From Neobacillus vireti (GTDB lineage Bacteria > Bacillota > Bacilli > Bacillales > Cytobacillaceae), in contig NZ_LDNB01000007.1 in NCBI RefSeq assembly GCF_001026695.1, positions 499,556 through 563,555 on the forward strand: a DNA stretch of 64,000 nucleotides, written 5' to 3'. Position numbers and translations under genes: made by a program. The notes under the pieces are model-generated. The model was not told the origin of the DNA. It did not search any database and saw only the letters and a list, made by a program, of their open reading frames with translations. Shown here one piece after another: positions 11,156-62,181 of this stretch; within the stretch, counting starts at the first letter, position 1; each line of letters starts with the position of its first letter.

Positions 11156-11408
11156 TTGGTACCTCCACCTAGCTTATCCTTTACCTTTTTTATTATTATC
11201 TATATTAGACAAAAATACCACATATAATTATGAATAATGACTAATGATTTTGTTTGCCTTTTCTAGTATATTAAATTCTAATGGGTTTTTTATCTAGTAC
11301 GGAATTTTTTAACTTGTTTGTTTGTTGTAGTTAAAAATTAGGAAGAACTAAACTCAAATAGATCTTAATTGTTGGGAAAAGATAAAGGGGAAATGGAGGG
11401 AAATAGTG

Positions 11409-12731
11409 ATGAATCAAAAGTCATCATCTACAATGTTTTTTGCCGGCTTACAATGGCTGTTTTTTATGTTTGCAAATACAGTTGTCATCCCGTTAACCAT
11501 TGGGGATGCATTCGATTTATCCTCCATGGAAGTCGCGAGTGCACTTCAAAGGTCATTTATTTTCACAGGTGTGGCTTGTGTTCTTCAGGCAGTAATTGGC
11601 CATAGATATCCACTGATGGAAGGGCAATCTGGATTATGGTGGGGAGCGCTTTTAAGCATTAGTGCATCCGCTTCTTCAGCAGGGTTAACTGCCAGTGAAA
11701 TGGGTGGTGGTCTAGCAGTTGGTATCATCCTTTCCGGGGTTCTTGTTACGATACTCGGTGCTCTTGGAATAGGGAATGTGTTAAAACGTTTGTTTACACC
11801 TGTTGTCATGAGTACAGTGTTATTTTTGTTAGGTGCACAGTTGGTTGGAATTTTTACAAAAGGAATGCTGGGGTTGGCGACTGGGGATCAAATTCACTTG
11901 CCGACAGCGGCCTTGTCGATTTTCTTAGTAATTCTTGTGGTTTGGATTAATGTAAAGGGACCTGGAGTCATTCGAAATTTTTCAATTCTGATTGGTATTG
12001 TAACAGGCTGGATTATTTATGTGATTTTCTTCCCGGCCCAGTCAGTTGAAGTCGTTACATCTACGAAGATTTTCAATGTTTTTCCTTGGGGGAAACCAAC
12101 CTTTAATCTCAGTCTGATTATATTTGCTGTCATCACTGGACTAGTGAATACAACCAATACCATTTCCGCTATTAAAGGGTTTGAACCTATGGTTAATGCC
12201 ACGACTACAAATAATCAGTACCGCAAATCATTTGTGTTAACAGGTTTGAATTCAGTTGTTTCAGGAGCGTTCGGAATGGTTCCTTATGCACCCTATGTGT
12301 CGTCGCTAGGGTTTTTACAATCAACACTCATATTTCAAACTCTGCCAATGATCATTGGTGCGGTTATGTTTATGGTGCTTGGTTTAGTTCCAGCGCTTAG
12401 TCATCTGTTTTCAACATTACCAGTAAGTGTAGGAAATGCCGTCTTATTTGTTGCATATTTACAGCTATTTAGCGGGGCTATTTCGAATTTAAAAGGAATT
12501 ACCTTTACCTCAAAGAGTATTTATCGGATTGCTGCTCCAGTATTATTGGGGATTGCCATTATGAATATTCCTGCTGATATGTTTGGATCCATCCCAATGG
12601 TTGTCAGACCACTTGTAAGCAGCGGTTTATTAATTGGAATTATCCTAGCAGTACTGCTTGAAAACACCATTAATTGGTCAAAGCTGGACCAAGTCAAAAA
12701 AAGTTTGGTAAAAGAGGAAAAGGTTAGTTAA
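11409..12731 (+). CDS. NCS2-family purine/uracil permease
   Basis: A 440-residue polytopic membrane protein of the nucleobase-ascorbate (NCS2/UraA/PbuX) type. It is hydrophobic throughout, with about 12-14 membrane segments. Typical features are the LMEGQSGLWWG stretch in the first third and a Thr/Asn-rich NTTNTISAI segment in the TM8 region. It probably imports xanthine, uric acid or uracil, but the exact nucleobase is not deducible. The ATG at 11409 is preferred to the GTG at 11406 because GGAGGG is 8 nt upstream. Its divergence from pucR suggests PucR control. A strong terminator follows. Confidence 0.85.
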   Translation: MNQKSSSTMFFAGLQWLFFMFANTVVIPLTIGDAFDLSSMEVASALQRSFIFTGVACVLQAVIGHRYPLMEGQSGLWWGALLSISASASSAGLTASEMGGGLAVGIILSGVLVTILGALGIGNVLKRLFTPVVMSTVLFLLGAQLVGIFTKGMLGLATGDQIHLPTAALSIFLVILVVWINVKGPGVIRNFSILIGIVTGWIIYVIFFPAQSVEVVTSTKIFNVFPWGKPTFNLSLIIFAVITGLVNTTNTISAIKGFEPMVNATTTNNQYRKSFVLTGLNSVVSGAFGMVPYAPYVSSLGFLQSTLIFQTLPMIIGAVMFMVLGLVPALSHLFSTLPVSVGNAVLFVAYLQLFSGAISNLKGITFTSKSIYRIAAPVLLGIAIMNIPADMFGSIPMVVRPLVSSGLLIGIILAVLLENTINWSKLDQVKKSLVKEEKVS

Positions 12732-48404: not shown

Positions 48405-49302
48405 CAGGTTCATCATCAAAGTCCCGGCCAGCTCAGCCAATCTTGGCCCAGGATTTGATTCCATGGGCGTCGCACTTGATTTGTATTTGACGTTAGAGGT
48501 TGAGGTAAGCCACCGCTGGGAGTTCTTGTCTGTCACAGATGAACTCCAACAGCTTCCAAAGGATGAGACACATTTTATCGGTCAAATAGCTTTACAGATT
48601 GCCGAAAAATATGACAGAGTTTTATCACCTTGTAAAGTGAAAATGGAAAGTGAGATTCCGTTAGCCCGCGGGCTCGGTTCAAGTGCAGCCGCTATTGTTG
48701 CCGGAATTGAGCTTGCGGATGCAGTCGGAAACTTAAACTTAACGCAGAAAGAAAAGCTGCTATTGGCAACAGAACTGGAGGGCCATCCTGATAATGTTGG
48801 TGCTTCGCTATATGGCGGTCTCGTTATTGGCTGTTATCGTCAAAATGAAGTAGATATGCTGTCGTTCACGAACCTTCCCTTTGAAATGGCAGTGGTCATC
48901 CCGCCGGAAACCCTATTGACAAAGGATTCCCGGGAGGTGCTCCCATTAGCATTTTCCCGGAATGAAGCAGTCCAAGCCTCTTCGACGGCGAATCTTTTAG
49001 TTGCAGCCCTTTTAAGTGAAAACTGGGAATTAGCAGGAAAAATGATGGGACAAGACCTTTTCCATCAGCCCTATCGAAAACCACTGGTCCTGGGGTTTCA
49101 GGAAATTGAACGTGCCGCTAAATTAAGCGGGGCATTCGGAACGGCCTTGAGTGGTGCTGGACCGACCGTTATTTGCTTTACTGAAAAAGAAAAGGGAAGG
49201 CAGCTATCACTGGATTTACAAGCCATTTTTCCTGAAATGACTGTAAAACCTCTCCAAATCGACCATTTTGGAAGCAGGGTAAAAGTAGTTGAAGTTTACT
49301 AA
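48391..49302 (+). CDS. thrB: Homoserine kinase
   Basis: Phosphorylates homoserine for threonine synthase. The 303-residue GHMP kinase has the N-terminal [19 protein letters not shown] (about residues 10-28), the ATP-binding [16 protein letters not shown] (about 90-105) and the C-terminal [17 protein letters not shown] (about 250). ATG 48391 has GAGGGG 8 nt upstream; the in-frame TTG at 48382 lies in that site. It is the last gene of the threonine operon, with a terminator 8 nt after the stop. Confidence 0.95.
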
Positions 49303-49310
49303 ATGAGAAC

Positions 49311-49334
49311 AGGGCAGCGAAATGCTGCCCTTTT
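49311..49334 (+). terminator. Terminator of the threonine operon
   Basis: AGGGCAGC and GCTGCCCT with a GAAAT loop, followed by TTT; compact and strong. Confidence 0.9.
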
Positions 49335-49394
49335 CCTATTAATTTATGGTAAAATAGTGTAAATATTTCAAAAATGGGGAGGGGGGATTAAGAA

Positions 49395-52300
49395 TTGAAG
49401 CTGCCGATTATTCAAACAAAACTGCGGATTCCAGCCGTGAAGGAGGACTTTATCAGGAGGGCACAGCTTACTAGGAAACTAAAGAAAATCCCTGACTTTC
49501 CACTGACGATCATTCATTCTGGAGCAGGCTATGGAAAAAGTACGGCACTTGCCCTCTTTATGAAGGACGAAAAAATCCCGGGCTGCTGGTACTCCATTTC
49601 GTCGCTGGATGATGACATCCTTCCTTTTCTCTCCTATATTATCCATTCCATCCGCCCTGTTCTACCTGATTTCGGCGAGGAATTAACTGCCTATATTGAC
49701 ACGATGGACCGCTATATCCGCGATGAGGAATTGAGTGTATTATCTTCACTTTTTATCAATGAAATTCTCGCGATCGATTCCGAGATTACCTTGATCCTCG
49801 ATGACTTTCATCAAATAGAACATTCTTATACAATCAATAGCTGGATGGAAAAATTGCTTGAACACATCCCCGCCAATTTACATATCGTCCTTTCGAGCCG
49901 CAGCCGCCCGGGATGGAAGTATCTGACGAAAATGAAGGTCTGTGGTCAGTTATTAGAGATTTCAAGAGACGACCTAGTTCTTACAATAGAAGAAATGGAG
50001 CTGCTGTTAACCGATCTTTATCGATTAGAAGTCGAGCCCAAGCATCTACAAACAATTTACGAGATGACAGAGGGCTGGGTTATCGCCTTATGCATGATTG
50101 CCCAGCAAATCCCGCTAAAAAAGGACATTACGGAGCTTTTTGAACACTCCTCACACTCCCTTCAGGATTTTTTTCAGTATTTAGTGATGGAGGTTTTTTC
50201 GAAACAGCCGCCAATGATCCAACAGTTCCTCGAGCAAACGTCGATTTTTGAAGAAATCGAGGAAGAAATCTGTGATGAAGTCATTGGCCTTCATGGAGCC
50301 TCCGGAATGCTTGAGCAATTGAAAGACCGGAATTTATTTATCCAAAAGGTTGGCATGAACCATTATCGTTATCACGCCTTATTTAAAGACTTTCTTGAAA
50401 ATATTTTTCAAAAGAATAACCCGAATCATTATGCCATCCTCCACGAAAAATGTGCCCGTTTTTATGAAAAAAGACAATTGTGGGAGGAGGCACTTCATCA
50501 TTATAAAAAAATCAATCACTATCAAGCGATTGCTTCCATTTTACAAGAGAACGGCTTAAGGATGCTTGAAAGTGGAAAATTAGCGAGCCTACATGATCAA
50601 TTAACGATTCTTCCAGAAGAGGAGATGGAATCGTACTACCTTCTTTGGTATTTAAAAGCGGAAATTCATCGCTACCGTTCCCAATACCAAGAGGCCGAGG
50701 ATTATTATGAAAAGGCCTTTATTGGTGCAGAAAAAAAGCAAGATGCTCTTGGAATGAGTATGGCACTGGAAGGGAAAGCGAAGATTTATTTAGATACGAT
50801 TCAGCCGCATCATGCCGAAAAGCTTCTATATGAGGCGATTGCCTACAGGGAAAAATGTAAGAGTTCAGGTGCAGAAAGAGGTAAACTCTATCAATTGCTA
50901 TCTGAGAATCTACTAAACTTAGGAAAAGCAACAGAGGCTGAAAAATGGATTCAAAAAACCAATGCCGTTAATTTTGATGGAAATTTAGAGGCAAGATTGT
51001 ATTTAAGAACCGGTCGATTTAACGAAGCAAGGAAAGTCCTATACAAAGAAGTGTTGAATGGTACTTTAGTTACCACACTGCCGCAGGCCCATCGTGAAAC
51101 TGATTTATTACTTTCCTTAATAGAAGCCTTTACTGGTGAGGGGGTAAAAGCGAAAGAGCTTGCCCAGAAGGCTATTCAACAAGGTATAAGCTATAAGGCT
51201 CCGTTCGTTGAGGCATGCGGCTGGATCCGGATGGGTCACGCTGTGCAAATATTAAATAAATATGAAACCCATTTAGCCGAAAACTGCTACCAAACAGCGT
51301 TAGAAATCATGGACCAGCTGGGTGTTGACAGAGGGAAGGCCGAACCGTTAATGGGACTTTGTATTTTATACGGAACAAGGGGAGAACTGGAACGGGCATT
51401 GGAGGCGGGAAAGAAGGCACTTCAAGAGACAGAAAAGGTTCATGATGTTTGGCTGTCGGCCTTAATCACGCTTTGCATGGGGATTACCTGCATTTATAAT
51501 GAACGGCTTCCGAAGGCGTTTGTATACTTGGAAAAAACAGATTCCCTATTCAAGCAGTGCGAGGATTCCTTTGGTCAAATGCTCAGCAAGTTTTGGTTGT
51601 CGTATCTTTTTTATCTTGAGAAAAAGCAAGACTTATATAACCATACAATCGATGAATTTTTAACACTTGTGCAAATTCATAAATACGAATTCTTTTTTCA
51701 TAAAAGATCTGTCTTCGGCCCAAGGGATTTACAACTGTTTGTGCCATTATTACTTGAATGTATGAAAGCGGAAATCCAAACGTCATTTGTCACAAAAACC
51801 TTACAGAATTTAGGAGTTAGCACATTTGGCTCCCATCCCGGGTACTCCATTCGTGTTCAAACACTTGGTCAATTCCGGCTTTGGCTTGGTGAGAAAGAGG
51901 TTGGAGAAAAGGAATGGCAACGAGAAAAGGCAAAGGAATTATTTCAGTTATTCATTAGCACAAATGAGCCAATTGCCAAAGATGAAATGATACAAATTCT
52001 TTGGCCCTATCAAGATAAAAAAAGTGCTGACCGTGATTTCAAGGTGGCCTTAAATAGTCTTCTGCAAGTATTGGAACCAATGCGGAAAGCAAGAGCGGCC
52101 CCCTTCTTCATCATTCGAGACGGAATGTTTTACGGGGTAAATCCACAAGCCGTGATTGAAGTGGATACAACACATTTTCAGGCGCTGATCCAAGACGGCT
52201 TAAATGAAAGCGCTGACGAAAAGGTTATTTATTTCCTTGAGAGAGGTTTGACCCTTTATCAAGGCGACTATTTGCCTGAACGCCGTTATGATGATTGGTG

Positions 52301-52628
52301 TATAAGCAAAAGAGAGAGCCTGCTCGTTTATTTTTTACGTGGTGCTGAGAAAATGGCGCAATTAATGGTTCGCCGCGAAAACTACGAAGCGTCAATTTAT
52401 TGGTGTGAAAAAATTCTCGAACGCGACCGCACATGGGAAGAAGCCTATCGCTTACTAATGTACTGTTACTATCGAAAAAACAACCGCCCCCAAGCGATGA
52501 AATGGTATCAAAAATGCACAGAGGTATTGGAAGAAGAACTGGGCGTAACCCCATTAGAACCGACAAAGCATATGTACCATATGATCATTGAATCAGATAA
52601 CATTTTATATCCGATTGAGCAGCCTTAG
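49395..52628 (+). CDS. MalT/AfsR-like AAA-TPR regulator with C-terminal BTAD (SARP-type) domain
   Basis: A 1077-residue signal-transduction ATPase. The STAND/AAA domain has Walker A HSGAGYGKST (residues 41-50) and Walker B LILDDFH (about 133). A helical middle of TPR-like repeats spans about 340-790. The C-terminal wing-helix DNA-binding domain starts at IRVQTLGQFRLWLG (about 818), followed by a BTAD domain (about 910-1070) ending with CYYRKNNRPQAMKWYQKC and EELGVTPLEPTKHMY. SARP-type domains bind tandem heptads with 4-bp spacers. Two such sites lie in the following cluster (52694, 60622), so this is the probable activator of those promoters. The start is TTG after GGGGAGGGGGG. Confidence 0.9.
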   Translation: MKLPIIQTKLRIPAVKEDFIRRAQLTRKLKKIPDFPLTIIHSGAGYGKSTALALFMKDEKIPGCWYSISSLDDDILPFLSYIIHSIRPVLPDFGEELTAYIDTMDRYIRDEELSVLSSLFINEILAIDSEITLILDDFHQIEHSYTINSWMEKLLEHIPANLHIVLSSRSRPGWKYLTKMKVCGQLLEISRDDLVLTIEEMELLLTDLYRLEVEPKHLQTIYEMTEGWVIALCMIAQQIPLKKDITELFEHSSHSLQDFFQYLVMEVFSKQPPMIQQFLEQTSIFEEIEEEICDEVIGLHGASGMLEQLKDRNLFIQKVGMNHYRYHALFKDFLENIFQKNNPNHYAILHEKCARFYEKRQLWEEALHHYKKINHYQAIASILQENGLRMLESGKLASLHDQLTILPEEEMESYYLLWYLKAEIHRYRSQYQEAEDYYEKAFIGAEKKQDALGMSMALEGKAKIYLDTIQPHHAEKLLYEAIAYREKCKSSGAERGKLYQLLSENLLNLGKATEAEKWIQKTNAVNFDGNLEARLYLRTGRFNEARKVLYKEVLNGTLVTTLPQAHRETDLLLSLIEAFTGEGVKAKELAQKAIQQGISYKAPFVEACGWIRMGHAVQILNKYETHLAENCYQTALEIMDQLGVDRGKAEPLMGLCILYGTRGELERALEAGKKALQETEKVHDVWLSALITLCMGITCIYNERLPKAFVYLEKTDSLFKQCEDSFGQMLSKFWLSYLFYLEKKQDLYNHTIDEFLTLVQIHKYEFFFHKRSVFGPRDLQLFVPLLLECMKAEIQTSFVTKTLQNLGVSTFGSHPGYSIRVQTLGQFRLWLGEKEVGEKEWQREKAKELFQLFISTNEPIAKDEMIQILWPYQDKKSADRDFKVALNSLLQVLEPMRKARAAPFFIIRDGMFYGVNPQAVIEVDTTHFQALIQDGLNESADEKVIYFLERGLTLYQGDYLPERRYDDWCISKRESLLVYFLRGAEKMAQLMVRRENYEASIYWCEKILERDRTWEEAYRLLMYCYYRKNNRPQAMKWYQKCTEVLEEELGVTPLEPTKHMYHMIIESDNILYPIEQP

Positions 52629-52646
52629 AAAATAGGGCTGTTTTTT
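52620..52646 (+). terminator. Terminator after the BTAD regulator
   Basis: CAGCC and GGCTG form a short 5-bp stem overlapping the stop codon region, followed by TTTTTT. It isolates the regulator transcript from the ABC operon. Confidence 0.7.
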
Positions 52647-52693: not shown

Positions 52694-52726
52694 TGTAACT
52701 CCCCTGTAACTTCAAACTCCTATCAT
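52694..52726 (+). promoter_or_regulatory. SARP-type tandem heptad and -10 upstream of the ABC operon
   Basis: TGTAACT (52694-52700), 4-bp spacer CCCC, TGTAACT (52705-52711), then 9 nt and the -10-like TATCAT (52721-52726). The heptads are 11 bp apart, one helical turn. The same arrangement recurs at 60622-60654 before the acyl-CoA ligase gene. It matches the direct-repeat operators of SARP/BTAD regulators, which replace a -35 box; the regulator gene is directly upstream. Confidence 0.7.
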
Positions 52727-52777
52727 AAACTCAAAGCTTTGCAAGTTTTAAAGTAAACATTTTAAGGGGGAAAAAGT

Positions 52778-54016
52778 GTGAAGGGGTATCGCGGGAAATG
52801 GGCATTAGTAGGATTGCTTATGTTGATGATGATCTTTGCGAGTGCTTGCAGCTCTGACAAATCATCATCGGAGCCGAAGGACAATGGGGGAAAGAAAACG
52901 GAAAATAAGGAACCAATTAAAATCGGTGTCCTTGCTTCTAAAACTGGTGCACTCGAATCTTACGGAAAGCAAACATTAAGAGGTTTTGAGCTTGGGCTTG
53001 ATTATGCAACAGATGGAAAGATGGAGGCTGCCGGCAGAAAGATTGAATTCATTGTTGAAGATACGGAAACGAAGCCGGAGGTAGCCGTGCAAAAAGCGAC
53101 GAAGCTATTAGAAGAAGATAAGGTTGATTTTCTAGTTGGATCGTCCAGCTCAGCCGACACATTGGCCGTTCTCCCATTAGCAGAAGAATATAAAAAGATC
53201 ATGGTTGTCGAACCAGCGGCGGCGGATAGTATTACAGGTTCAGAGTTTAATAAGTATATTTTCCACTCGGCTCGGAACTCTTCACAGGATGCGGTTGCCG
53301 GCGCTGCAGCAATCGCCAAAAAAGGCGTAAAAATTGCCACGCTTGCACCGGATTATTCCTTTGGACGTGATGGGGTGGCGGCTTTTAAAGAAGCGGCTGT
53401 AAAACTTGGCGCTGAAATTGTGAAGGAAGAGTATGCGGATCCTGCAGCAACAGATTTCACTTCAAATATTCAAAAAATCGTCGATGCCAAACCTGATTAT
53501 TTATTCGTTGTTTGGGCTGGTGCAAACTCTCCATGGAAGCAGATTGCCGACATGAAGGTGCAGGAAAAAGGAATCAAGATTTCAACCGGAGCCCCGGATA
53601 TCGCGGCATTATCGACAATGGAGCCATTGATTGGGATGGAAGGCTTCACTGTTTATTATCATGACCTGCCGAAAAATAAAATTAACGACTGGCTGGTTGA
53701 GGAGCATAAGAAGCGCTTTAACGGTGACGTTCCCGACCTGTTTACCCCTGGCGGGATGAGCGCAGCGATCTCGATTGTGGAAGCGTTGAAGAAATCGAAT
53801 GGTGAAACGGATGCGGATAAACTGATCAAAACAATGGAAGGCATGAGCTTTGAGACGCCAAAAGGGAAAATGACCTACCGTCCGGAAGATCACCAAGCCC
53901 TGCAAGCATTGTATGCAATTAAGCTGGAAAAGAAAGATGGTGTGGCGTACCCAGTGCCAGTATTGATCAGGGAATTGACTCCTGATGAAACGGCGCCGCC
54001 AATCCGCAACAATTAA
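52778..54016 (+). CDS. LivJ-type ABC transporter substrate-binding lipoprotein
   Basis: A 412-residue extracytoplasmic binding protein. The signal peptide has lipobox ASAC (Cys about 24), then a Ser/Lys-rich linker. The Peripla_BP_6 (Leu/Ile/Val-binding-like) domain begins IKIGVLASKTGALESYGKQ (about residue 47). The family takes branched-chain amino acids but also amides, urea and aromatic or aliphatic acids. With a CoA ligase and reductase in the cluster, an organic acid is more likely than an amino acid. GTG 52778 follows AGGGGGAAAAA. It is the first gene of the importer operon. Confidence 0.9.
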   Translation: MKGYRGKWALVGLLMLMMIFASACSSDKSSSEPKDNGGKKTENKEPIKIGVLASKTGALESYGKQTLRGFELGLDYATDGKMEAAGRKIEFIVEDTETKPEVAVQKATKLLEEDKVDFLVGSSSSADTLAVLPLAEEYKKIMVVEPAAADSITGSEFNKYIFHSARNSSQDAVAGAAAIAKKGVKIATLAPDYSFGRDGVAAFKEAAVKLGAEIVKEEYADPAATDFTSNIQKIVDAKPDYLFVVWAGANSPWKQIADMKVQEKGIKISTGAPDIAALSTMEPLIGMEGFTVYYHDLPKNKINDWLVEEHKKRFNGDVPDLFTPGGMSAAISIVEALKKSNGETDADKLIKTMEGMSFETPKGKMTYRPEDHQALQALYAIKLEKKDGVAYPVPVLIRELTPDETAPPIRNN

Positions 54017-54102
54017 GAAAATATCAAGTAAAAATACGGGGGTTCGACCGAGTAAAACATGGTCAGCCTCTTCCTTATTTCTATTACAAGGCGGTGAAGC
54101 GA

Positions 54103-54861
54103 ATGTCCTCGCTTATTGAAACAACTGATCTATCGATTACCTTTGGCGGTCATACTGCTGTGGATGCTGTCAGTATTTCTGTTCCTGAGAAGCACTTTAA
54201 GTCGATCATCGGGCCAAATGGCGCCGGAAAAACAACCTTTTTCAATCTCCTAAGCGGCCAATTAACGCCGACTCAAGGAAAAATCTATTATCGCGGAAAG
54301 GATATCACGAAATTTTCACCGACAAACCGCACAAGAGCGGGGATTGGCCGTTCTTTTCAAATTACCAATGTATTCCCTAATTTAACCGTATTAGAGAATG
54401 TAAGATTAGCGGTCCAATCGCAGGCAGGAATTCGATATCAGATGCTGTTTCATTATAAAAAATATCGAACATTTGAAGAAAAGGCATTAGAATGGCTCAG
54501 GCTTGTCCTATTAGACGATAAAAAGGGTTCGCTAGCAAGCAATCTGGCCCATGGCGAAAAGCGGAAGCTTGAAATTGCGATGCTGCTGGCACTTGAAACA
54601 GAAGTTCTTTTATTAGACGAACCAACAGCAGGCATGTCGCTTGAGGAAGTTCCGGCGATTCTAGAAGTGATCAAACGAATTAAGGAACAAGGAAACCGAA
54701 CGATTATCCTGATTGAACACAAGATGGATATGATTCTCGATTTATCGGATTCGGTCATGGTTCTTTTTAATGGAAGGCTTTTGGCCGACGGAACCCCGGA
54801 AGAGATCATGAAAAACGAGACAGTGCAGTCTGCCTATTTAGGAGGTCTACTCGATGAATAA
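54103..54861 (+). CDS. LivG-type ABC transporter ATP-binding protein
   Basis: A 252-residue ATPase. Walker A is GPNGAGKTTFFNLLSG (about residue 38), the Q-loop region is GIGRSFQITNVFPNLTVLENV, Walker B is LLLDEPTAGMS and the switch His is in IILIEHKMD. The LSGGQ signature is replaced by NLAHGEKRKLEIAM, as is usual for LivG. ATG 54103 is preferred to the GTG at 54094, which lies in the ribosome site. It starts 86 nt after the binding-protein stop without a terminator and overlaps livF by 8 nt. Confidence 0.93.
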   Translation: MSSLIETTDLSITFGGHTAVDAVSISVPEKHFKSIIGPNGAGKTTFFNLLSGQLTPTQGKIYYRGKDITKFSPTNRTRAGIGRSFQITNVFPNLTVLENVRLAVQSQAGIRYQMLFHYKKYRTFEEKALEWLRLVLLDDKKGSLASNLAHGEKRKLEIAMLLALETEVLLLDEPTAGMSLEEVPAILEVIKRIKEQGNRTIILIEHKMDMILDLSDSVMVLFNGRLLADGTPEEIMKNETVQSAYLGGLLDE

Positions 54862-55564
54862 CGACCTGTTAAAACTTGATAAAGTCGAAACCCATATCGG
54901 TCAATATCATATTCTCCAAGGTGTTTCCTTTGAGGTGAAAAAAGGGGAAGTAACCGTCCTTCTTGGCAGAAATGGAGCCGGAAAAACAACAACATTACGA
55001 ACGATAATGGGGCTGAAGCCGGCCTCGAAAGGGAGCGTTACGTTTAAAGGAGAAGCGATTCAGTCCCTGCCAACCTATACGATTGCCAAAAAGGGCATCG
55101 GTTATGTTCCCGAGGATCAGGGGATTTTTGCCGGACTAACGGTTGAGGAAAACATGAGAGTGGCGATTCAAAAAGACGATGAAGAAACCGCTAAACGAAT
55201 GGATTGGATCTTACATTTGTTCCCCGACTTGAAAAGATTTTGGAAAAAACCGGGCGGCTTGTTAAGCGGCGGGCAAAAACAAATGCTTTCCATCGCAAGA
55301 GCTTATGTGAATGAAAATGAACTGCTGTTAATTGATGAGCCAAGTAAAGGCCTGGCCCCCATTGTAGTTGAAAAGGTAATGGACTCGATAATCCAAATGA
55401 AAGACCAAACCACTATCGTGTTAGTGGAACAAAATTTCATGATGGCGAGCACGATTGGCGATCAATTTTACATTATTGATGATGGAAGAACCGTGAGTCA
55501 TGGCTCCATGAAGCAATTGAAAGAAAATGAAGAAATGAAACGAAAATATCTAGGGATTGCATAA
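54854..55564 (+). CDS. LivF-type ABC transporter ATP-binding protein
   Basis: A 236-residue second ATPase of the importer. It has Walker A GRNGAGKTTTLRTIMG (about residue 37), YVPEDQGIFAGLTVEENM, the signature LLSGGQKQMLSIARA (about 136-150), Walker B LLIDEPSKGLAP and switch His position replaced by Gln (VLVEQNFM), typical of LivF. It forms a heterodimer with the LivG-type protein. The start lies within the end of livG, so the two are coupled. Confidence 0.93.
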   Translation: MNNDLLKLDKVETHIGQYHILQGVSFEVKKGEVTVLLGRNGAGKTTTLRTIMGLKPASKGSVTFKGEAIQSLPTYTIAKKGIGYVPEDQGIFAGLTVEENMRVAIQKDDEETAKRMDWILHLFPDLKRFWKKPGGLLSGGQKQMLSIARAYVNENELLLIDEPSKGLAPIVVEKVMDSIIQMKDQTTIVLVEQNFMMASTIGDQFYIIDDGRTVSHGSMKQLKENEEMKRKYLGIA

Positions 55565-55582
55565 GGAAGGAGGGACAACTAA

Positions 55583-56443
55583 GTGGATTTAATCATCAAC
55601 TTAGCCTTAAATGGTCTGGCAACAGGGATGCTGATCTTTTTATTGGCGGCCGGTTTAACGCTGATTTTCGGTTTGATGGATGTGCTGAATTTTGCCCACG
55701 GCGGGTTATTTGCCTGGGGGGCCTATAGCGGCCTGTGGATTTATTCGCAGACTGGTAGCTTTATCATCGGGATCATTGGCGCCATCTTAACTGGTTTTCT
55801 GCTCGGAATTATTACTGAAAAATGGATTATTAAACCGGTTTACGGCAACCATGTACAACAGATTTTAATCACCCTTGGTCTCATGCTTGTTTTATCCGAA
55901 ATGCTGAAAGTCATTTGGGGGCCCAATCAAATTACGGCATCACCTCCGGACTATTTAAAGGGCAGCTGGGAACTCGGCGGCGTGATTATCATCAAGTACC
56001 GAGTATTTATCATTCTAGTGGGGTTTGTCATTTTTGCAGGGGTGCAATTTTTACTTAAAAAAACAAAGATTGGCCTTGTTGTCCGTGCAGGTGTGATGAA
56101 TAAAGAAATGGTGCAAGCGCTGGGAATCAATATTCAAAGGGTGTTTATGTTTGTATTTATGATTGGTGCCGGTATGGCTGCGCTTGGTGGTGTGCTGCTC
56201 GGTCCTTATTCCGGGGTAATCCATGCCGGTATGGGGATGGAATTCGCCATCTTAGCCTTTATTGTCGTCGTTATCGGAGGGATGGGCAATTTCAAAGGCT
56301 CTGTGTTAGCCGCAATCTTAGTAGGGCTTTCCGGTTCGTTTATGGCGTATTATGTCCCCGACCTATCGCTGGCGGTAAATATGCTTCTCATGGCGATAGT
56401 GTTAATTATTCGGCCGCAGGGTCTATTTGGGGCAAAGGGGTGA
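55583..56443 (+). CDS. LivH-type ABC transporter permease
   Basis: A 286-residue integral membrane protein with about eight hydrophobic segments. The N-terminal NLALNGLATGMLIFLLAAGLTLIFGLMDVLNFAHGG is the LivH signature. GMGMEFAILAFIVVVIGGMGNFKGS lies in the cytoplasmic coupling region (about 210-235). The GTG start has GGAAGGAGG upstream. It pairs with the LivM-type permease immediately downstream, with a gap of 4 nt to that start. Confidence 0.93.
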   Translation: MDLIINLALNGLATGMLIFLLAAGLTLIFGLMDVLNFAHGGLFAWGAYSGLWIYSQTGSFIIGIIGAILTGFLLGIITEKWIIKPVYGNHVQQILITLGLMLVLSEMLKVIWGPNQITASPPDYLKGSWELGGVIIIKYRVFIILVGFVIFAGVQFLLKKTKIGLVVRAGVMNKEMVQALGINIQRVFMFVFMIGAGMAALGGVLLGPYSGVIHAGMGMEFAILAFIVVVIGGMGNFKGSVLAAILVGLSGSFMAYYVPDLSLAVNMLLMAIVLIIRPQGLFGAKG

Positions 56444-56447
56444 GAAC

Positions 56448-57446
56448 ATGCGATTGATTCAAGGAAATCGAATGACGGCCATCATTTTAGTTGTTGCAGC
56501 TTTTCTGCTCCTTTTGCCGTTCGTTTACGAATCGCGAAACTTATTGATTTTATTGACACAGGTGTTCGTTTTTTCAATCTTCGCGATGAGTTATGACTTG
56601 TTGTTGGGCTTTACCGGAATTGTTTCCTTCGGGCATGCGATGTTTTTTGGCATTGGCGCGTATTCGATGGGGATTTTTATGAAGCGGTTTGAACCAACGC
56701 TAACGGTTTTCCTTTTGGCGGTACTGACGACCATTGTTCTTACTGGTTTCGTTAGCTTCCTTGTTGGCTTGCTTACACTTCGTTTAAAAAGTCATTTCTA
56801 TGCGATGTTAACCTTATCGTTATCAGGCCTTTTTCTTGTCTTAGCGGAAAAGTGGCGGACGATGACCTATGGGAATGATGGCTTCACGTTTCGCGTCCCG
56901 GAACTGTTTATTGACCGGACTAATTTTTACCTGCTTTGTTTAGTTGTCATGGTTGCGGTATTTCTTATCCTGAAGCGGTTTACCAATTCCCCGCTTGGCA
57001 GAGTGCTTCAAGCAATCAGGGAAAATGAACAACGAACGGAATCATTAGGGTTTCAAGTGCTCCATTATAAAATTGCTGCAAGTGTGATGTCCGGCGTATT
57101 AGCAGGAATTGCGGGAATCTTATATGCGATTTCGCTCCGCTTTGTGAACACAAGTGTGTTTGCAATGGATATTACCTTGGATGCATTATTAATGACAATC
57201 ATTGGCGGCGTGGGAACATTAATCGGTGCCATCATTGGCGCAGGTCTAATCGAGTTTGCCCACCATTGGCTGACGGAACTGGCGAAAGAGCATTGGATTT
57301 TTGAGCGCTGGATTATCTTCTTTGGCATTATTTATATTTTGGTCGTGATGTTTTTCCCTAGAGGCATTGTCGGGACGTTAAGTACACTTTCTTGGAAACG
57401 AAAACAACAACCTGCTGTTAAAAAGGAAGAAAAGATAGCGGGATAG
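56448..57446 (+). CDS. LivM-type ABC transporter permease
   Basis: A 332-residue permease with about nine membrane segments. The LivM features are SYDLLLGFTGIVSFGHAMFFGIGAY (about residues 45-70) and RVLQAIRENEQRTESLGF (about 180-198), the coupling helix region. GGVGTLIGAIIGAGL is near 255. The C-terminus is a Lys-rich tail. ATG 56448 is preferred to the upstream in-frame TTG at 56427, which overlaps livH. It completes a five-component importer. Confidence 0.93.
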   Translation: MRLIQGNRMTAIILVVAAFLLLLPFVYESRNLLILLTQVFVFSIFAMSYDLLLGFTGIVSFGHAMFFGIGAYSMGIFMKRFEPTLTVFLLAVLTTIVLTGFVSFLVGLLTLRLKSHFYAMLTLSLSGLFLVLAEKWRTMTYGNDGFTFRVPELFIDRTNFYLLCLVVMVAVFLILKRFTNSPLGRVLQAIRENEQRTESLGFQVLHYKIAASVMSGVLAGIAGILYAISLRFVNTSVFAMDITLDALLMTIIGGVGTLIGAIIGAGLIEFAHHWLTELAKEHWIFERWIIFFGIIYILVVMFFPRGIVGTLSTLSWKRKQQPAVKKEEKIAG

Positions 57447-57458
57447 AGGGGGAGACAC

Positions 57459-57638
57459 GTGGAAATCAATCAAATTGCTTCCTTTGTTGTTCGTTTTCAA
57501 CTTGCCGCTATTGAAAAGGAAACAGGGAAAAAACAATGGAGAATAAAGGTAACACATGTCCAAGAAGAGCGGGAGACGTTGTTTGAGTCGATTGAGGGAG
57601 CGATGGAATTCATGCAGGAAATGGCAGAGGAAGCGTAG
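57459..57638 (+). CDS. Small conserved-position protein (59 aa), function unknown
   Basis: A 59-residue ORF starting GTG after GAGGGGGAGAC. It begins MEINQIASFVVRF, has a central basic WRIKVTHVQEERETLF, and a C-terminal acidic amphipathic helix (SIEGAMEFMQEMAEEA). It has no signal peptide or membrane segment. It sits 12 nt after livM and 14 nt before the condensing-enzyme start, inside the operon, so it is very likely expressed. No family was recognised. The size and position suggest a subunit or carrier-like helper of the neighbouring enzymes; that is inference. Confidence 0.75.
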   Translation: MEINQIASFVVRFQLAAIEKETGKKQWRIKVTHVQEERETLFESIEGAMEFMQEMAEEA

Positions 57639-57652
57639 GGGAGAAGGTGATT

Positions 57653-58669
57653 GTGTTGCAAATTGGCATTCTGAGCACAGGTATTTATTTACCAGAGGAA
57701 TTTTTGACTGGTAAAGAGATTGCAGAACTGGCAGGTATCCCTGCACCTGTTGTCGAAAAGAAAATGGGAATCAGGAAAAAGCATATCCCAGGTCCCGATG
57801 ACCATACATGTGAAATGGGAATTACCGCGGCAAAAAAGGCGATTGCCAAGGCGGGGATTGACCCATTGGAGATTGATCTCGTTATTTATATTGGCGAAGA
57901 ACATAAGGAGTACCCGCTTTGGACGGCCGGAATTAAACTGCAGGAAGAAGTGGGTGCGTTAAATGCTTGGGCATTTGATGTGGCGTTAAGATGCGGGACG
58001 ACTGTTATGGCGTTAAAAGTGGCCAAAAGTTTGATGATTGCTGACCCTGGGATTCGAACCGTTTTGCTCGCGGGTGGGTATCGCAATGTTGATTTCATTG
58101 ATTACGAGAATCCGAGAACCCGGTTTATGTTTAATCTGGGTGCCGGGGGCGGCGCGCTTCTTTTACGAAAGGGGCATAACGAAAACCTTCTATTAGAAAC
58201 TGAACTAATCACAGACGGTTCTTTTTCAGAGGATGTTGTGGTGGTCTCCGGCGGTACGAAGAACCCGATTTCCGTTGAGGCAATTGAACAGCGCCTCAAT
58301 AAGCTCGATGTTCTTGATCCAGAAGGCATGAAGCAGCGTCTGGAACAAAAGTCGATGGACAATTTTTTAAAGGTGATTCGCGAGTCATTACGAAAAAGCG
58401 GCTATAGTGAAGCCGATCTTTCCTACTTGGCGATTCTACACATGAAAAAATCGGCCCATGAATATGTATTAAAGGAACTAGGCTTGTCCGAAGAACAGTC
58501 TATTTATCTTGAAGACTATGGACATATCGGACAAATCGATCAGATTTTGTCCTTGGAGCTTGCCTTGAAAGAAGGAAAAATCAAGAATGGTGACGTTGTC
58601 GTTTTTGTCAGTGCCGGAATTGGCTACGCTTGGGGAGCAACCACAATTAAATGGGGGAAGGGTGATTGA
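57653..58669 (+). CDS. KASIII/FabH-like condensing enzyme (thiolase fold)
   Basis: A 338-residue thiolase-superfamily enzyme of the FabH type. The active-site Cys is in VALRCGTTVMAL (Cys114) and the first His in LAILHMKKSAH (about 263). The position of the catalytic Asn of FabH (HGNTSAAS) is occupied by His in EDYGHIGQID (about 291), so the triad reads Cys-His-His. That suggests a reaction other than ordinary malonyl-ACP condensation, such as acyl transfer or CoA-thioester Claisen condensation. The likely start is GTG 57653 (TTG 57656 also possible) after GGGGAGAAGG. It is followed directly by the hydrolase gene. Confidence 0.82.
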   Translation: MLQIGILSTGIYLPEEFLTGKEIAELAGIPAPVVEKKMGIRKKHIPGPDDHTCEMGITAAKKAIAKAGIDPLEIDLVIYIGEEHKEYPLWTAGIKLQEEVGALNAWAFDVALRCGTTVMALKVAKSLMIADPGIRTVLLAGGYRNVDFIDYENPRTRFMFNLGAGGGALLLRKGHNENLLLETELITDGSFSEDVVVVSGGTKNPISVEAIEQRLNKLDVLDPEGMKQRLEQKSMDNFLKVIRESLRKSGYSEADLSYLAILHMKKSAHEYVLKELGLSEEQSIYLEDYGHIGQIDQILSLELALKEGKIKNGDVVVFVSAGIGYAWGATTIKWGKGD

Positions 58670-58670
58670 A

Positions 58671-59561
58671 ATGGGTAACGTTTCAATGAAGGAAGTGTCT
58701 TTGCCAAATGGAGAAACATTGGCTTATAGGGAGAGAGAAGGCGGCGAGGTAAAGGTTTTATTAATTCATGGAAATATGACATCGTCGAAGCATTGGGATT
58801 TGGTGCTTGACAATATGGATGAGAAATATAAGCTTTATGCAGTTGATTTGCGCGGCTTTGGCGGTTCCAGCTATAACAATCTAGTCATGTCGATTAAAGA
58901 CTTTTCTGATGATGTGAAACTGTTTGTTGATGAAATTGGATTGAAGGATTTCGCTGTAGTGGGCTGGTCAACGGGCGGAGCAGTAGCGATGCAATTTGCT
59001 GCTGATTACCCGGGCTATTGTAATAAGCTGATTTTATTAGCATCGGAATCGACTCGTGGTTATCCATTCGATGGAAGAATAAATGAAGCGGATGAGCCGC
59101 GGCGGTTTGCCTTACATGAAGAGATTAAACAGGATTTGATTCGGACGATTCCTGTGCAGACAGCCTATGACACGAATAATGTAGACTTATTGAAATTGAT
59201 TTGGAATGCCGTTATTTATACGGATAAACAGCCAGCTCCTGAACTTTATGATGAGTATGTTCAAGATATGAGAACACAAAGGAATTTGGCTGAGGTACAT
59301 CATGCCAATAATACCTTTAATATTAGCCGTCACCATAATGGGCTTGTCGGGGGGAATGGCGAAGTAGATTTAATTGATGTCCCTGTTCTTGTATTGCAAG
59401 GGGACCGCGATATGGTGATTTTAAAAGAGATGACGAAAGAACTTGTAGAGGACCTAGGAGAAAAAGCTAAATTTGTAGAATTAAAGAATTGCGGGCATTC
59501 ACCATTAGTGGATGATTTACCGCAATTATTGAAGGCGATGACACAATTTTTGGAGGAGTAA
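58671..59561 (+). CDS. Alpha/beta hydrolase
   Basis: A 296-residue hydrolase. The oxyanion segment is LLIHGNMTSSKHW (about residue 30), the nucleophile is Ser100 in VVGWSTGGAVAMQ, the acid is in LVLQGDRDMVI (about 244) and His in NCGHSPLVDDL (about 275). The class includes esterases, C-C bond hydrolases and thioesterases. The start ATG 58671 lies 1 nt after the preceding stop; the longer frame to 58587 overlaps the condensing enzyme and is rejected. The SDR gene follows after 3 nt. Confidence 0.85.
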   Translation: MGNVSMKEVSLPNGETLAYREREGGEVKVLLIHGNMTSSKHWDLVLDNMDEKYKLYAVDLRGFGGSSYNNLVMSIKDFSDDVKLFVDEIGLKDFAVVGWSTGGAVAMQFAADYPGYCNKLILLASESTRGYPFDGRINEADEPRRFALHEEIKQDLIRTIPVQTAYDTNNVDLLKLIWNAVIYTDKQPAPELYDEYVQDMRTQRNLAEVHHANNTFNISRHHNGLVGGNGEVDLIDVPVLVLQGDRDMVILKEMTKELVEDLGEKAKFVELKNCGHSPLVDDLPQLLKAMTQFLEE

Positions 59562-59564
59562 GAA

Positions 59565-60305
59565 ATGCGATTACAAGATAAAGTAGCCATTATAACAGGG
59601 GCGGCGGGCGGTATCGGCTTAACCGCTGCCGAGGTATTTGCACGGGAAGGTGCGAAGGTGGCGATGGCAGATTTCAATGTGGAGCAAGGCGAAGAACGGG
59701 CTCGTGAGCTGCGGCAGCAAGGCTATGATGTTACTTTTTTTCAAGTAAATGTAGCAGACCGCCAGAGTGTAGATGAAATGGTCGAAAAGGTTTTAGCAGC
59801 CTATGGAAAAATTGATATCCTGATTAATAATGCCGGAATAACGAGAGATGCGATGCTGTCAAAGCTATCAGTTGAAGATTTTCAAGCAGTACTTGATGTC
59901 AATCTAACGGGTGTTTTTCACTGTACACAGGCTGTATTGCCAGCGATGATTGCGAATGGCAGTGGGAGAATTATTAACACATCATCTGTCTCCGGAGTCT
60001 ATGGTAATGTCGGACAAACGAATTATGCAGCCACAAAAGCCGGCGTTATTGGGATGACGAAAACGTGGGCGAAGGAGCTTGGGCGGAAAGGGATTAACGT
60101 CAACGCAGTTGCCCCGGGATTTATCGAAACAGGGATGACGGCAAAGGTGCCAGAAAAAGTGATGGCACAAATGCTGCAGATGGTCCCGCTCGCGCGATTA
60201 GGCAAGCCGAAGGATATTGCGAATGCTTATTTATTCCTGGCTTCGGATGAATCGAATTACGTGAACGGAACCGTGCTCCTTGTGGATGGCGGGATTATGA
60301 TGTAA
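59565..60305 (+). CDS. 3-oxoacyl reductase-type short-chain dehydrogenase (FabG/PhaB-like)
   Basis: A 246-residue classical SDR. The cofactor motif TGAAGGIG (residues 11-18), NNAG (about 88), catalytic Ser in NTSSVSG (about 139) and YAATK (about 153-157) are all present. The C-terminus VNGTVLLVDGGIMM is typical of FabG/PhaB. It probably reduces a 3-oxoacyl-CoA or -ACP made by, or delivered to, the neighbouring condensing enzyme; direction and carrier are inference. It is the last gene before the terminator at 60314. Confidence 0.88.
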   Translation: MRLQDKVAIITGAAGGIGLTAAEVFAREGAKVAMADFNVEQGEERARELRQQGYDVTFFQVNVADRQSVDEMVEKVLAAYGKIDILINNAGITRDAMLSKLSVEDFQAVLDVNLTGVFHCTQAVLPAMIANGSGRIINTSSVSGVYGNVGQTNYAATKAGVIGMTKTWAKELGRKGINVNAVAPGFIETGMTAKVPEKVMAQMLQMVPLARLGKPKDIANAYLFLASDESNYVNGTVLLVDGGIMM

Positions 60306-60313
60306 TGTTGGAA

Positions 60314-60338
60314 GCGACCTTTTTGGGGTCGTTTTTTT
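60314..60338 (+). terminator. Terminator after the SDR gene
   Basis: CGACC and GGTCG with a 7-nt T/G loop and a following run of seven T. It ends the ABC-to-SDR operon, so the CoA ligase behind it needs its own promoter. Confidence 0.82.
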
Positions 60339-60364
60339 AATTTGTTGGGTTTAATTTTGGGGCT

Positions 60365-60581
60365 TTGTTGAATATCCATTGAATTTTGTAGAAAGAGGCT
60401 TAAAATTTGTTGAATGCCGGCAGAAATTTGTAGAAAGAAGCTCCAAATTTGTTGAATGGACCTGTATTTGTTGAATGTCCTTTGTATCTTGTTGAATCCC
60501 TACCCAAAATTGTTGAATGGTCCCCGTTATTTGTAGAATCACTACTAATATTTGTTGATTAACAATCAATATTTATAGAAA
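60365..60581 (+). repeat. 21-bp-period degenerate tandem array, core TTGTTGAAT / TTGTAGAAA
   Basis: Eleven units with cores starting at 60365, 60386, 60407, 60428, 60449, 60468, 60489, 60510, 60531, 60552 and 60573. Every step is 21 bp except one of 19. Two core variants (TTGTTGAAT, TTGTAGAAA) partly alternate; the bases between cores differ. A 72-residue periodic reading frame on the minus strand (STNFKPL-like heptads) is a by-product of the period and has no good ribosome site. It occupies most of the 382-bp gap between the SDR and ligase genes. Confidence 0.88.
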
Positions 60582-60621
60582 ATCCAGTTCAAACAGCAAC
60601 TACCTCCTCAATGCAATCCCC

Positions 60622-60654
60622 TGTAACTGCCCTGTAACTAAAAATGAGTAAGAT
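60622..60654 (+). promoter_or_regulatory. SARP-type tandem heptad and -10 upstream of the acyl-CoA ligase
   Basis: TGTAACT (60622-60628), spacer GCCC, TGTAACT (60633-60639), then 9 nt and the -10-like TAAGAT (60649-60654). The spacing is identical to that at 52694-52726. It places the ligase gene, although behind a terminator, in the same regulon as the ABC operon. Confidence 0.7.
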
Positions 60655-60687: not shown

Positions 60688-62181
60688 GTGAACTGGGAAC
60701 TGGATTGGCTGGAAAATCGGGCACGATTATCGCCAAATAAGGATGCCATTATAGATGAAAAGACAAACAATGCTTGGACATTTACAGAATTGAATAAGCG
60801 GGCAAACTCAACTGCAAGCTGGCTTCATACACGGGGCGTAAAAAAAGGCGATCGAGTAGCCCTACTATCGCCAAACCATATTAGCTATTTTGATTTATTG
60901 TTTGCCTGCGGGAAAATTGGCGCCATCTTCGTTCCGCTTAATCGGCGCTTATCATTGCATGAAATAAACGAGATATTGGCGGATTGTACACCTGTTTTAA
61001 TCGGAGTCCATCAAGAGTTCGAATCTATCTCTCCACATCTAACGAATACAGCTACCTTTTTTATAGGGGATCCCAGTTACGAAGAGCTAGTCACGTTTCC
61101 AATAGGGGATTTACCTCAAGAGGAAATCGCTGAAACTGATCCGCTGGCGATGATTTATACTGGCGGAACGACAGGGAAACCAAAAGGAGTTGTATTAAGC
61201 CACCAATCCATTCTCTGGAATGCGATTAACACAATCGTAAGCTGGAGTTTAACAGAGGATGATGTGACAGTAAACTATATGCCGATGTTTCATACCGGGG
61301 GACTAAATGCCTTGACCATTCCCGTCTTGATGATTGGCGGAACAGTTGTCATAGGCGAGCTGTTTTCAGGAAAAAAAGCGGTGGAATCATTGAATCGCTA
61401 TCGCTGCACAACGATTCTCCTCGTTCCAACGATGTATCATATGCTTATTCAAACAGACGAATTTCAAAATAGTGACTTCCCTTTTATGAAGATTTTTTTA
61501 TCGGGGGCAGCACCATGCCCGATGCATATCTACGAGGCCTTTCAGAAAAAGCGGTTAGCTTTTAAAGAAGGGTACGGTCTCACAGAGGCGGGGCCGAACA
61601 ATTTTTATATTAGTCCGGAAGATGCCCAAATGAAACGTGGATCTGTCGGCAAACCAATGCTGTTTAATTCAATAAAACTAGTTAAAACAGATGGCTGCGA
61701 GACGGATACCAATGAGGTCGGTGAACTGTTAATAAAAGGGAAGCATGCCTTTTCGTTTTATTGGAACCGCGAACAAGCAACAGAGGAAACGTGGAAGGAT
61801 GGCTGGATTCATACGGGGGATTTAGCGAAAAGGGATGAACAGGGCTTCTATTATATTGTCGGCCGGAAAAAAGAGATGATTATTACGGGCGGAGAAAATG
61901 TATATCCACTTGAAGTAGAGCAGTGGCTGGCCTCACACCCGGCGATTGACGAAGTGGCAGTCCTAGGGCTGCCTGATGAAAGATGGGGCGAAATGGTTGC
62001 CGCATTCATTACTTTAAAGCAATCCTGCACCATACCAGATGAGGAATTAAAAATGTATTGTGAATCAAAACTGGGCCGATACAAAATTCCAAAACAGTTC
62101 ATTCGCTTAGCGGAACTGCCAAAAACCCACGTGGGAAAAATAGATAAAAATAAGTTAAAAGAAATGAGTATTCATAGCTAA
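60688..62181 (+). CDS. AMP-forming acyl-CoA ligase
   Basis: A 497-residue ANL-superfamily enzyme. The P-loop MIYTGGTTGKPKG (about residues 153-165), A5 region EGYGLTEAGPN (about 295), GWIHTGDLAKRD (about 370) and the C-terminal KKEMIITGGENVYPLEVE hinge with the late Lys in VGKIDKNKL (about 490) are present. It probably activates a carboxylic acid (fatty, short-branched or aromatic) imported by the adjacent ABC system. Chain length cannot be read from sequence. The GTG start follows GAAGGAGCG. Confidence 0.88.
   Translation: MNWELDWLENRARLSPNKDAIIDEKTNNAWTFTELNKRANSTASWLHTRGVKKGDRVALLSPNHISYFDLLFACGKIGAIFVPLNRRLSLHEINEILADCTPVLIGVHQEFESISPHLTNTATFFIGDPSYEELVTFPIGDLPQEEIAETDPLAMIYTGGTTGKPKGVVLSHQSILWNAINTIVSWSLTEDDVTVNYMPMFHTGGLNALTIPVLMIGGTVVIGELFSGKKAVESLNRYRCTTILLVPTMYHMLIQTDEFQNSDFPFMKIFLSGAAPCPMHIYEAFQKKRLAFKEGYGLTEAGPNNFYISPEDAQMKRGSVGKPMLFNSIKLVKTDGCETDTNEVGELLIKGKHAFSFYWNREQATEETWKDGWIHTGDLAKRDEQGFYYIVGRKKEMIITGGENVYPLEVEQWLASHPAIDEVAVLGLPDERWGEMVAAFITLKQSCTIPDEELKMYCESKLGRYKIPKQFIRLAELPKTHVGKIDKNKLKEMSIHS

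Follow-up and report, generated by a model that had tools for sequence, protein, structure and literature searches.

Gene cluster and its tandem-heptad elements

The 64-kb stretch of Neobacillus vireti DNA analysed here (the window) carries a gene for a 1077-residue regulator, followed by transporter and enzyme genes with two copies of a tandem repeat of the heptad TGTAACT. An earlier note, made from the sequence alone, had read these repeats as promoters of a regulon like those of the Streptomyces antibiotic regulatory proteins (SARPs). The features of the locus are the following.

49395-52628, + strand: regulator gene, 1077 amino acids, TTG start; MalT-like ATPase part and tetratricopeptide repeat (TPR) region, then winged helix and BTAD
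52617-52643, + strand: terminator-like hairpin 3' of the regulator gene (consensus match)
52694-52711, + strand: operator 1, TGTAACT-N4-TGTAACT
52721-52726, + strand: -10 box TATCAT, 9 nt past heptad 2 of operator 1; predicted start A 52733
52778-54016, + strand: LivJ-type substrate-binding protein (PF13458)
54094-57446, + strand: LivG, LivF, LivH and LivM-type ABC transporter genes (54094-54861, 54854-55564, 55583-56443, 56427-57446)
57647-58669, + strand: 3-oxoacyl-ACP (acyl carrier protein) synthase III-like enzyme (KAS; NF005308, 533 bits, cut-off 315)
58587-59561, + strand: intracellular short-chain polyhydroxyalkanoate (PHA) depolymerase (PhaZ; NF050089, 437.8 bits, curated cut-off 300)
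59565-60305, + strand: FabG-like short-chain dehydrogenase/reductase (SDR; NF004198, 316 bits, cut-off 296)
60310-60336, + strand: terminator-like hairpin between the SDR gene and promoter 2 (12 pairs and a T run)
60622-60639, + strand: operator 2, TGTAACT-N4-TGTAACT
60649-60654, + strand: -10 box TAAGAT, 9 nt past heptad 2 of operator 2; predicted start A 60661
60688-62181, + strand: acyl-CoA ligase (AMP-binding, PF00501)

LivG and LivH were named by model scan, LivF and LivM from their translations. The true start of the PHA depolymerase gene probably lies near 58671. Among the open reading frames (ORFs) of the window from the regulator to the CoA ligase, no second regulator gene is found. 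The terminator that the earlier note had placed near 60314 corresponds to the hairpin at 60310-60336, identified by consensus match only. With the hairpin at 52617-52643, each promoter thus comes after a putative terminator.

Element 1 reads TGTAACT-CCCC-TGTAACT from 52694, followed by 9 nt and by TATCAT, which ends at 52726. Element 2 reads TGTAACT-GCCC-TGTAACT from 60622, followed by 9 nt and by TAAGAT, which ends at 60654. Direct reading therefore bears out the position, heptads, spacing and -10 hexamer claimed for both. The two promoters had also been called identical. This is true of the heptads; the N4 spacers are one base apart and the -10 hexamers differ.

These are the only two perfect tandem heptads in the window. 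A window search allowing up to three mismatches gave 9 matches against 5.6 expected, a count reached by 10 of 100 shuffles and therefore uninformative. Across the 27 contigs of the genome (5,309,094 bases), this locus accounts for both exact pairs; one more site has a single mismatch and 20 have two. The two-mismatch sites were rejected as extra regulon members since they show no enrichment (23 sites in total versus 58 for the reversed pattern). The lone one-mismatch site (C24:89706, L172) was also discarded, having no -10 box at N9. As to autoregulation of the regulator gene, neither TGTAAC nor its complement occurs within 49151-49400.

The region between the hairpin and promoter 2 (60364-60580) also contains 11 decamers close to TTTGT(A/T)GAAT in exact 21-bp steps (5 + 6, with one phase break), separated by unconserved 11-nt spacers. 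Two further decamer arrays are present in the source genome (C9:24364-24477 and C5:50576-50689), and the pattern has 30 matches genome-wide versus 6 for its reversed control. Shorter arrays are found 5' of the CoA ligase gene in two relatives, with 6 copies in L160 (G123) and 4 in L098 (G156).

The regulator is composed of two parts. The MalT model NF003420 covers residues 5-523 with 245 bits, under its cut-off of 537. A strict Walker A pattern finds no match in the protein; a MalT-like AGYGKST was read by eye. The C-terminal part, residues ~818-1077, contains an OmpR/PhoB-like winged helix directly followed by a BTAD (residues 923-1064; PF03704, 68.5 bits, cut-off 22.1), and the whole fold resembles that of a solved SARP. 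The earlier claim of a 1077-residue regulator with a C-terminal winged helix and BTAD is borne out by the family match and by the predicted fold. A full profile of the C-terminal part recovers the AfsR structure in the PDB. A single-sequence PDB search with the first 165 residues of this part returned no SARP, and the short profile A2 matched PhoB-like domains weakly (E 0.012). No LuxR-type helix-turn-helix (HTH) is found at the C-terminus among the 9 Pfam families listed. In this predicted model, the C-terminus of the regulator is a SARP fold. Because the SARP part is C-terminal here, and not N-terminal as in the AfsR/PimR layout, the protein is best described as a SARP-type domain in a new layout and not as a classical SARP. 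Of the 15 loci found, in a search that may omit the source genome itself, the closest with a named genome is that of Neobacillus novalis NBRC 102450, its regulator being 95% identical.

Conservation and geometry of the promoters

The search for regulator orthologues and for the motif covered 193 GTDB family genomes and 397 genomes from the order. Co-occurrence tables were made by hand; a long regulator fragment was scored as presence, a short remnant (G044, G091, G114, G151, G188) or a protein of weak similarity as absence. In the family, exact heptads occur in 80 of 88 genomes with the regulator versus 2 of 105 without. For the promoter pattern (Y/T wobble, TANNNT at N9) the counts become 86/88 and 1/105. 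The one family genome with the pattern and no regulator, G044, has a cluster and a regulator that are both decayed; in the two with a regulator and no pattern, G050 and G163, heptads are present and leave an 8-nt gap or carry one mismatch. In the order sample, a pattern allowing N8-9 occurs in 93 of 98 genomes with the regulator versus 8 of 299 without. Four of the five order genomes with a regulator and no match were inspected (all but G389), and each has a heptad pair between the regulator and LivJ genes with a slightly different -10. The check set by the earlier note was whether the exact motif is frequent genome-wide or linked to orthologues of the regulator. It is not frequent, and it is linked to them, so that the check is passed.

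The two places of the elements are also conserved. Upstream of LivJ, a pair with at most one mismatch lies within 250 nt in 83 of 83 fetched clusters, 67 of them with an exact pair. Upstream of the CoA ligase the figures are 77/81 and 61. The four misses are a two-mismatch site (G142), a region without a site (G098), an element more than 250 nt away (G015) and G050, where the second element lies behind the ligase gene, before a gene of the polyhydroxybutyrate (PHB) depolymerase family. As a control, 100 permuted heptads were used. No region is matched by 97 of them and a single region by each of two others; the last is the real site in shifted form and is found in 54 of 164 regions. It could be argued that the elements are chance repeats near ordinary promoters, as the motif is short and the three-mismatch search of the window is near chance level. 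Yet the same two fixed places recur in about 80 clusters with variable N4 letters. By this comparison of sequences the elements are not chance, and we regard that reading as refuted, with virtually no probability left to it.

To describe the promoter geometry, 162 distinct elements were collected by their heptads alone from cluster loci, eight loci of unlinked sites being left out. Direct heptads at an 11-bp period are found, by comparison, in the target promoters, as at SARP sites. TANNNT lies exactly 9 nt downstream of the heptads in 160 of the 162; both failing elements belong to G050 and have an 8-nt gap. The seventh base after the -10 box is A in 157/162, and the base before it is a pyrimidine in 160/162. 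Because this Y-A step is conserved, a transcription start about 7 nt after the -10, predicted at 52733 and 60661, is supported. Counted from the conserved A as the presumed start, the heptads would occupy -39 to -33 and -28 to -22, within a 22-bp operator from -39 to -18. Column analysis finds little information 5' of heptad 1, in N4 and in most of N9; in this analysis the heptad columns were selected by the search itself and have no evidential value, and the order rows had in part been chosen on the -10. As described in the excerpts seen of PMC10936776, the AfsR operator extends from -40 to -19, and SARP sites have their 3' repeat at a distance of 8 bp from the -10. Here the operator overlaps the -35 position, and the distance to the -10 is 9 nt, one more than the quoted value.

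The -35 position is filled by heptad letters (ACTNNN), there is no TTGACA-like box, and for neither site did a consensus scan list a sigma-70 promoter on this strand. Promoters that depend on an activator are expected to look like this. A heptad-bound repressor released by an inducer would also be compatible with the sequence, but the same features of the -35 region speak against it, and we judge it very unlikely.

A further alternative is that a different, cluster-borne regulator binds the heptads while the BTAD protein acts elsewhere. Co-occurrence by itself names no binder, and matches without the regulator occur in the 8 of 299 order genomes mentioned above. Against this stand the 11-bp period and the place over the -35, which are traits of SARP sites in the parts seen of PMC10936776 and PMC5930380, and the lack of another regulator gene from the regulator to the CoA ligase in the window. 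Moreover, two genomes (G003 and G007) have LivJ-G-F-H-M, KAS, PhaZ and CoA ligase genes at 59-87% identity and no regulator, and their operons show no heptad pair better than three mismatches within 19.5 kb.

The last argument against a different binder comes from outside the order, where heptads still come after the regulator gene though the next gene differs. In the phylum sample, 11 genomes outside the order have a regulator match, and pairs with up to two mismatches were sought in 10 of them (all but G747). In 8 of the 10, a pair lies within 1 kb after the match (regulator identity 32-39%). In G641 the regulator is cut at the contig end and no site is nearby; the nearby pair of G749 (26% regulator identity) was dismissed as meaningless, given 48 scattered matches in that genome. 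All seven distant arrays fetched (L343-L349) have 3 or 4 heptads spaced by 11-bp steps; the later heptads differ at up to three positions. TANNNT follows the last heptad after 9 nt in 5/7 and 8 nt in 2/7. Downstream lie an SDR gene (56-59% identical to that of the window) in five loci, a KAS gene (61%) in one and only a weak LivH-like match in one. Heptad arrays behind the regulator gene thus extend to other classes of this GTDB phylum. In view of these points a different binder is hardly more probable than a repressor, and the regulator with its SARP-type domain is the preferred one. Linkage of the motif to the regulator and the SARP fold of its C-terminus together support the earlier proposal of a SARP-like regulon as a whole.

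Unlinked targets and a proposed regulon

Nineteen elements unlinked to the cluster were examined among the matches listed (sites of, for example, G195 and G241 were not included); several had been found with a pattern that included the -10. Thirteen of the 19 precede a PHB-depolymerase-family gene (G001, G011, G073, G191 with a truncated gene, G219, G360, G202, G452, G499, G519, G532, G019 and G022). The distance from element to start codon is 39-104 nt in the 12 targets other than G022. Twelve pass NF050058, the model for extracellular type 1 PHA depolymerases, with 312.8-330.8 bits (cut-off 150); the truncated G191 gene scores 106.9 bits. In its catalytic part, the G001 protein matches 8daj, solved as 'Esterase, PHB depolymerase family', with E 7e-124. 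A hydrophobic stretch is present at the start of all 13 targets, the best 12-residue mean within the first 45 residues being 2.28-3.38 versus 0.47-1.83 in 18 non-targets; secretion is judged here by crude hydropathy and not by signal-peptide prediction.

In the family, PF10503 finds 25 genes in 19 of 193 genomes, all of which look like the same broad family. All 7 genes with a hydrophobic leader have an element with at most one mismatch, and none of the 18 without a leader has one. The element therefore marks the secreted-looking members. NF050058 was rejected as a mark of element targets since the 18 others also pass it, and for the leaderless group (L324-L335, L337-L342) 'extracellular type 1 PHA depolymerase' may be too broad a name.

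From these data we propose that a SARP-type activator would act on the paired heptads and drive two transcripts of a regulon for scavenging external PHB and 3-hydroxybutyrate, to which we assign a probability of roughly three in four. Comparison establishes the element with its geometry and conservation, its link to the regulator and hydrolase genes and, as a predicted model, the SARP fold; we infer that the protein binds and activates, what induces it, what is transported and in which order the enzymes act, and beyond the existence and geometry of the site the mechanism is modelled on AfsR. Inducer and ATP would act on the MalT-like ATPase/TPR part, so that the C-terminal domains are freed or paired. 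Two winged-helix/BTAD domains could then occupy the TGTAACT heptads side by side along the same face of the DNA, at the place of the missing -35 box. They would replace the -35 contact and hold sigma-A polymerase at the -10 box 9 nt downstream. Transcript 1 would encode the Liv-type ABC transporter, the KAS-III-like enzyme, the intracellular PHA depolymerase and the SDR, and transcript 2, separately, the CoA ligase. In some relatives a secreted PHB-depolymerase-family enzyme would be driven as well. The suggested path runs from import through hydrolysis of oligomers by PhaZ, activation to the CoA ester by the ligase and oxidation by the SDR to KAS-like cleavage, yielding acetyl-CoA. In depolymerase carriers the pathway would start outside the cell; others, such as the source genome, would use products made by neighbours. 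In our view the regulon most probably deals with PHB and 3-hydroxybutyrate. The earlier note had proposed no function, and a PHB-related one is a probable addition.

Several observations weigh against this proposal. The -10 spacing is not the one quoted for Streptomyces SARPs. The co-occurrence counts are of related genomes and not of independent events, and one of the 86 family genomes, G154, is probably a chance match, with a regulator cut at the contig end and no clear gene behind the site. Eight order genomes have a pattern match and no regulator; G478 and G519 were inspected. In G519, an intact heptad promoter (L301, 6028) precedes a PHB-depolymerase-family gene with no regulator found, which may reflect recent loss, an assembly gap or another regulator. 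The source genome has no PF10503 gene at E 1e-15, so that the polymer would be cut by others, or the substrate would be 3-hydroxybutyrate or another hydroxy acid. All 18 non-target PF10503 genes of the family pass NF050058 (240-277 bits), and 5 of these element-less genes sit in regulator-bearing genomes (G065, G066, G103 and, twice, G158). Finally, six of the 19 unlinked sites do not precede a PHB-depolymerase-family gene. Three have no TANNNT at N9 and were set aside: G024 C12, G159 C1 (before a LacI-type gene) and G018 (238 nt before a glycosidase-like gene), both genes being named by eye. Two more were dropped, in G478 with 518 nt to the next ORF and in G154 with no clear gene start. The sixth, the second site of G449 (L297, 3580-5922), lies before the gene of an alpha/beta hydrolase that looks secreted and falls in no curated family, possibly another polyester depolymerase; the next gene encodes a hydrolase weakly like NF050089 (127 bits, cut-off 300).

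Some of these points would fit a SARP-type operator serving another substrate, such as other hydroxy acids, aliphatic polyesters, or branched-chain or fatty acids, with the secreted hydrolases merely one source or cutting something else. The PF10503 gene is lacking in the source genome and in most family genomes, NF050058 fails to separate targets from non-targets, and the Liv-type transporter and FadD-like ligase belong to broad families. In addition, three genomes (G019, G022, G024) keep the regulator and both elements with no KAS, PhaZ or SDR gene between LivM and the ligase. What opposes another substrate is the position of 13 of 19 unlinked sites before secreted-looking PHB-depolymerase-family genes, and the score of the cluster's intracellular PHA depolymerase, which exceeds a curated cut-off. 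We consider this alternative unlikely, if clearly the most serious one; the alternatives weighed here do not exclude each other's parts. The family model alone is no proof that PHB is the substrate, and this slightly lowers our confidence both in the scavenging regulon and in the wider version of it given below.

A separate variation of gene content is seen in L143 (G191), where the interval from the regulator to promoter 1 (9703-12359) holds a second KAS-like and CoA-ligase-like set, 38-42% identical to that of the cluster.

In a wider version of the proposal, towards which we lean with distinctly less assurance, this SARP-type regulon would be ancient and shared by several classes within a single Gram-positive phylum. 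Its regulator, a MalT-like sensor of 3-hydroxybutyrate or of the oligomers with the SARP domain shifted to its end, would switch on secretion, uptake and use of external PHB through a single fixed promoter code, TGTAACT-N4-TGTAACT-N9-TANNAT.

Comparison with known systems

Among the matches listed from the open PMC literature, no title or abstract start describes such a regulon, and none concerns SARP-type control of PHA depolymerases; subscription papers were outside the search. The lone match joining SARP with PHB depolymerase, PMC13372988, was discarded: it contains the letters twice, and the place seen is the surname Sarpong. The portion seen of PMC4908106 deals with phaZ of B. thuringiensis and has no such regulator.

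The system would join a transporter and intracellular enzymes to secreted polyester hydrolases within a single regulon, which makes the sensing and use of bioplastic testable. Its operator is recognisable from sequence almost without background, and it offers a compact activator/promoter pair. If the wider version of the proposal is true, the Liv-type system is an importer of 3-hydroxybutyrate oligomers, and the promoter sequence becomes a code for recognising PHB users in genome data.

The enzymes have known counterparts: the cluster gene passes the model for intracellular depolymerases, and 12 of the 13 unlinked targets pass that for extracellular ones. With the MalT/LAL regulators, the protein shares its N-terminal half (the NF003420 match, below cut-off); it differs in having no C-terminal LuxR HTH, a winged helix and BTAD standing there instead. 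EmbR of Mycobacterium tuberculosis (PDB 2fez, 2ff4) is unlike it in having an FHA domain, according to the part seen of PMC10936776, and is too short to hold an ATPase/TPR part.

PimR and other Streptomyces SARP-LALs also join a SARP part to a LAL-like ATPase, and use heptads with 4-nt spacers, to which PimR binds as cooperating monomers (PMC5930380, in the part seen). The three or more tandem heptads found with distant relatives of the window regulator somewhat resemble the three-heptad operator of PimR. In PimR, however, the SARP part lies in the N-terminal half and the main operator lies off the -35, as far as the parts seen of PMC5930380 and PMC3367932 describe it. AfsR of Streptomyces coelicolor, a large SARP (PDB 8hvr, 8k60, 8jke), has the opposite order of modules, a different heptad and 8 bp to the -10 instead of 9 nt, and serves antibiotic regulation and not a catabolic operon. 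The window regulator thus presents the SARP-type promoter and domain in another host group, in another domain order and in a probable other role. SARPs are known for activating antibiotic biosynthesis; in Neobacillus and its relatives, with the domain order reversed, this geometry and fold appear to serve catabolism.

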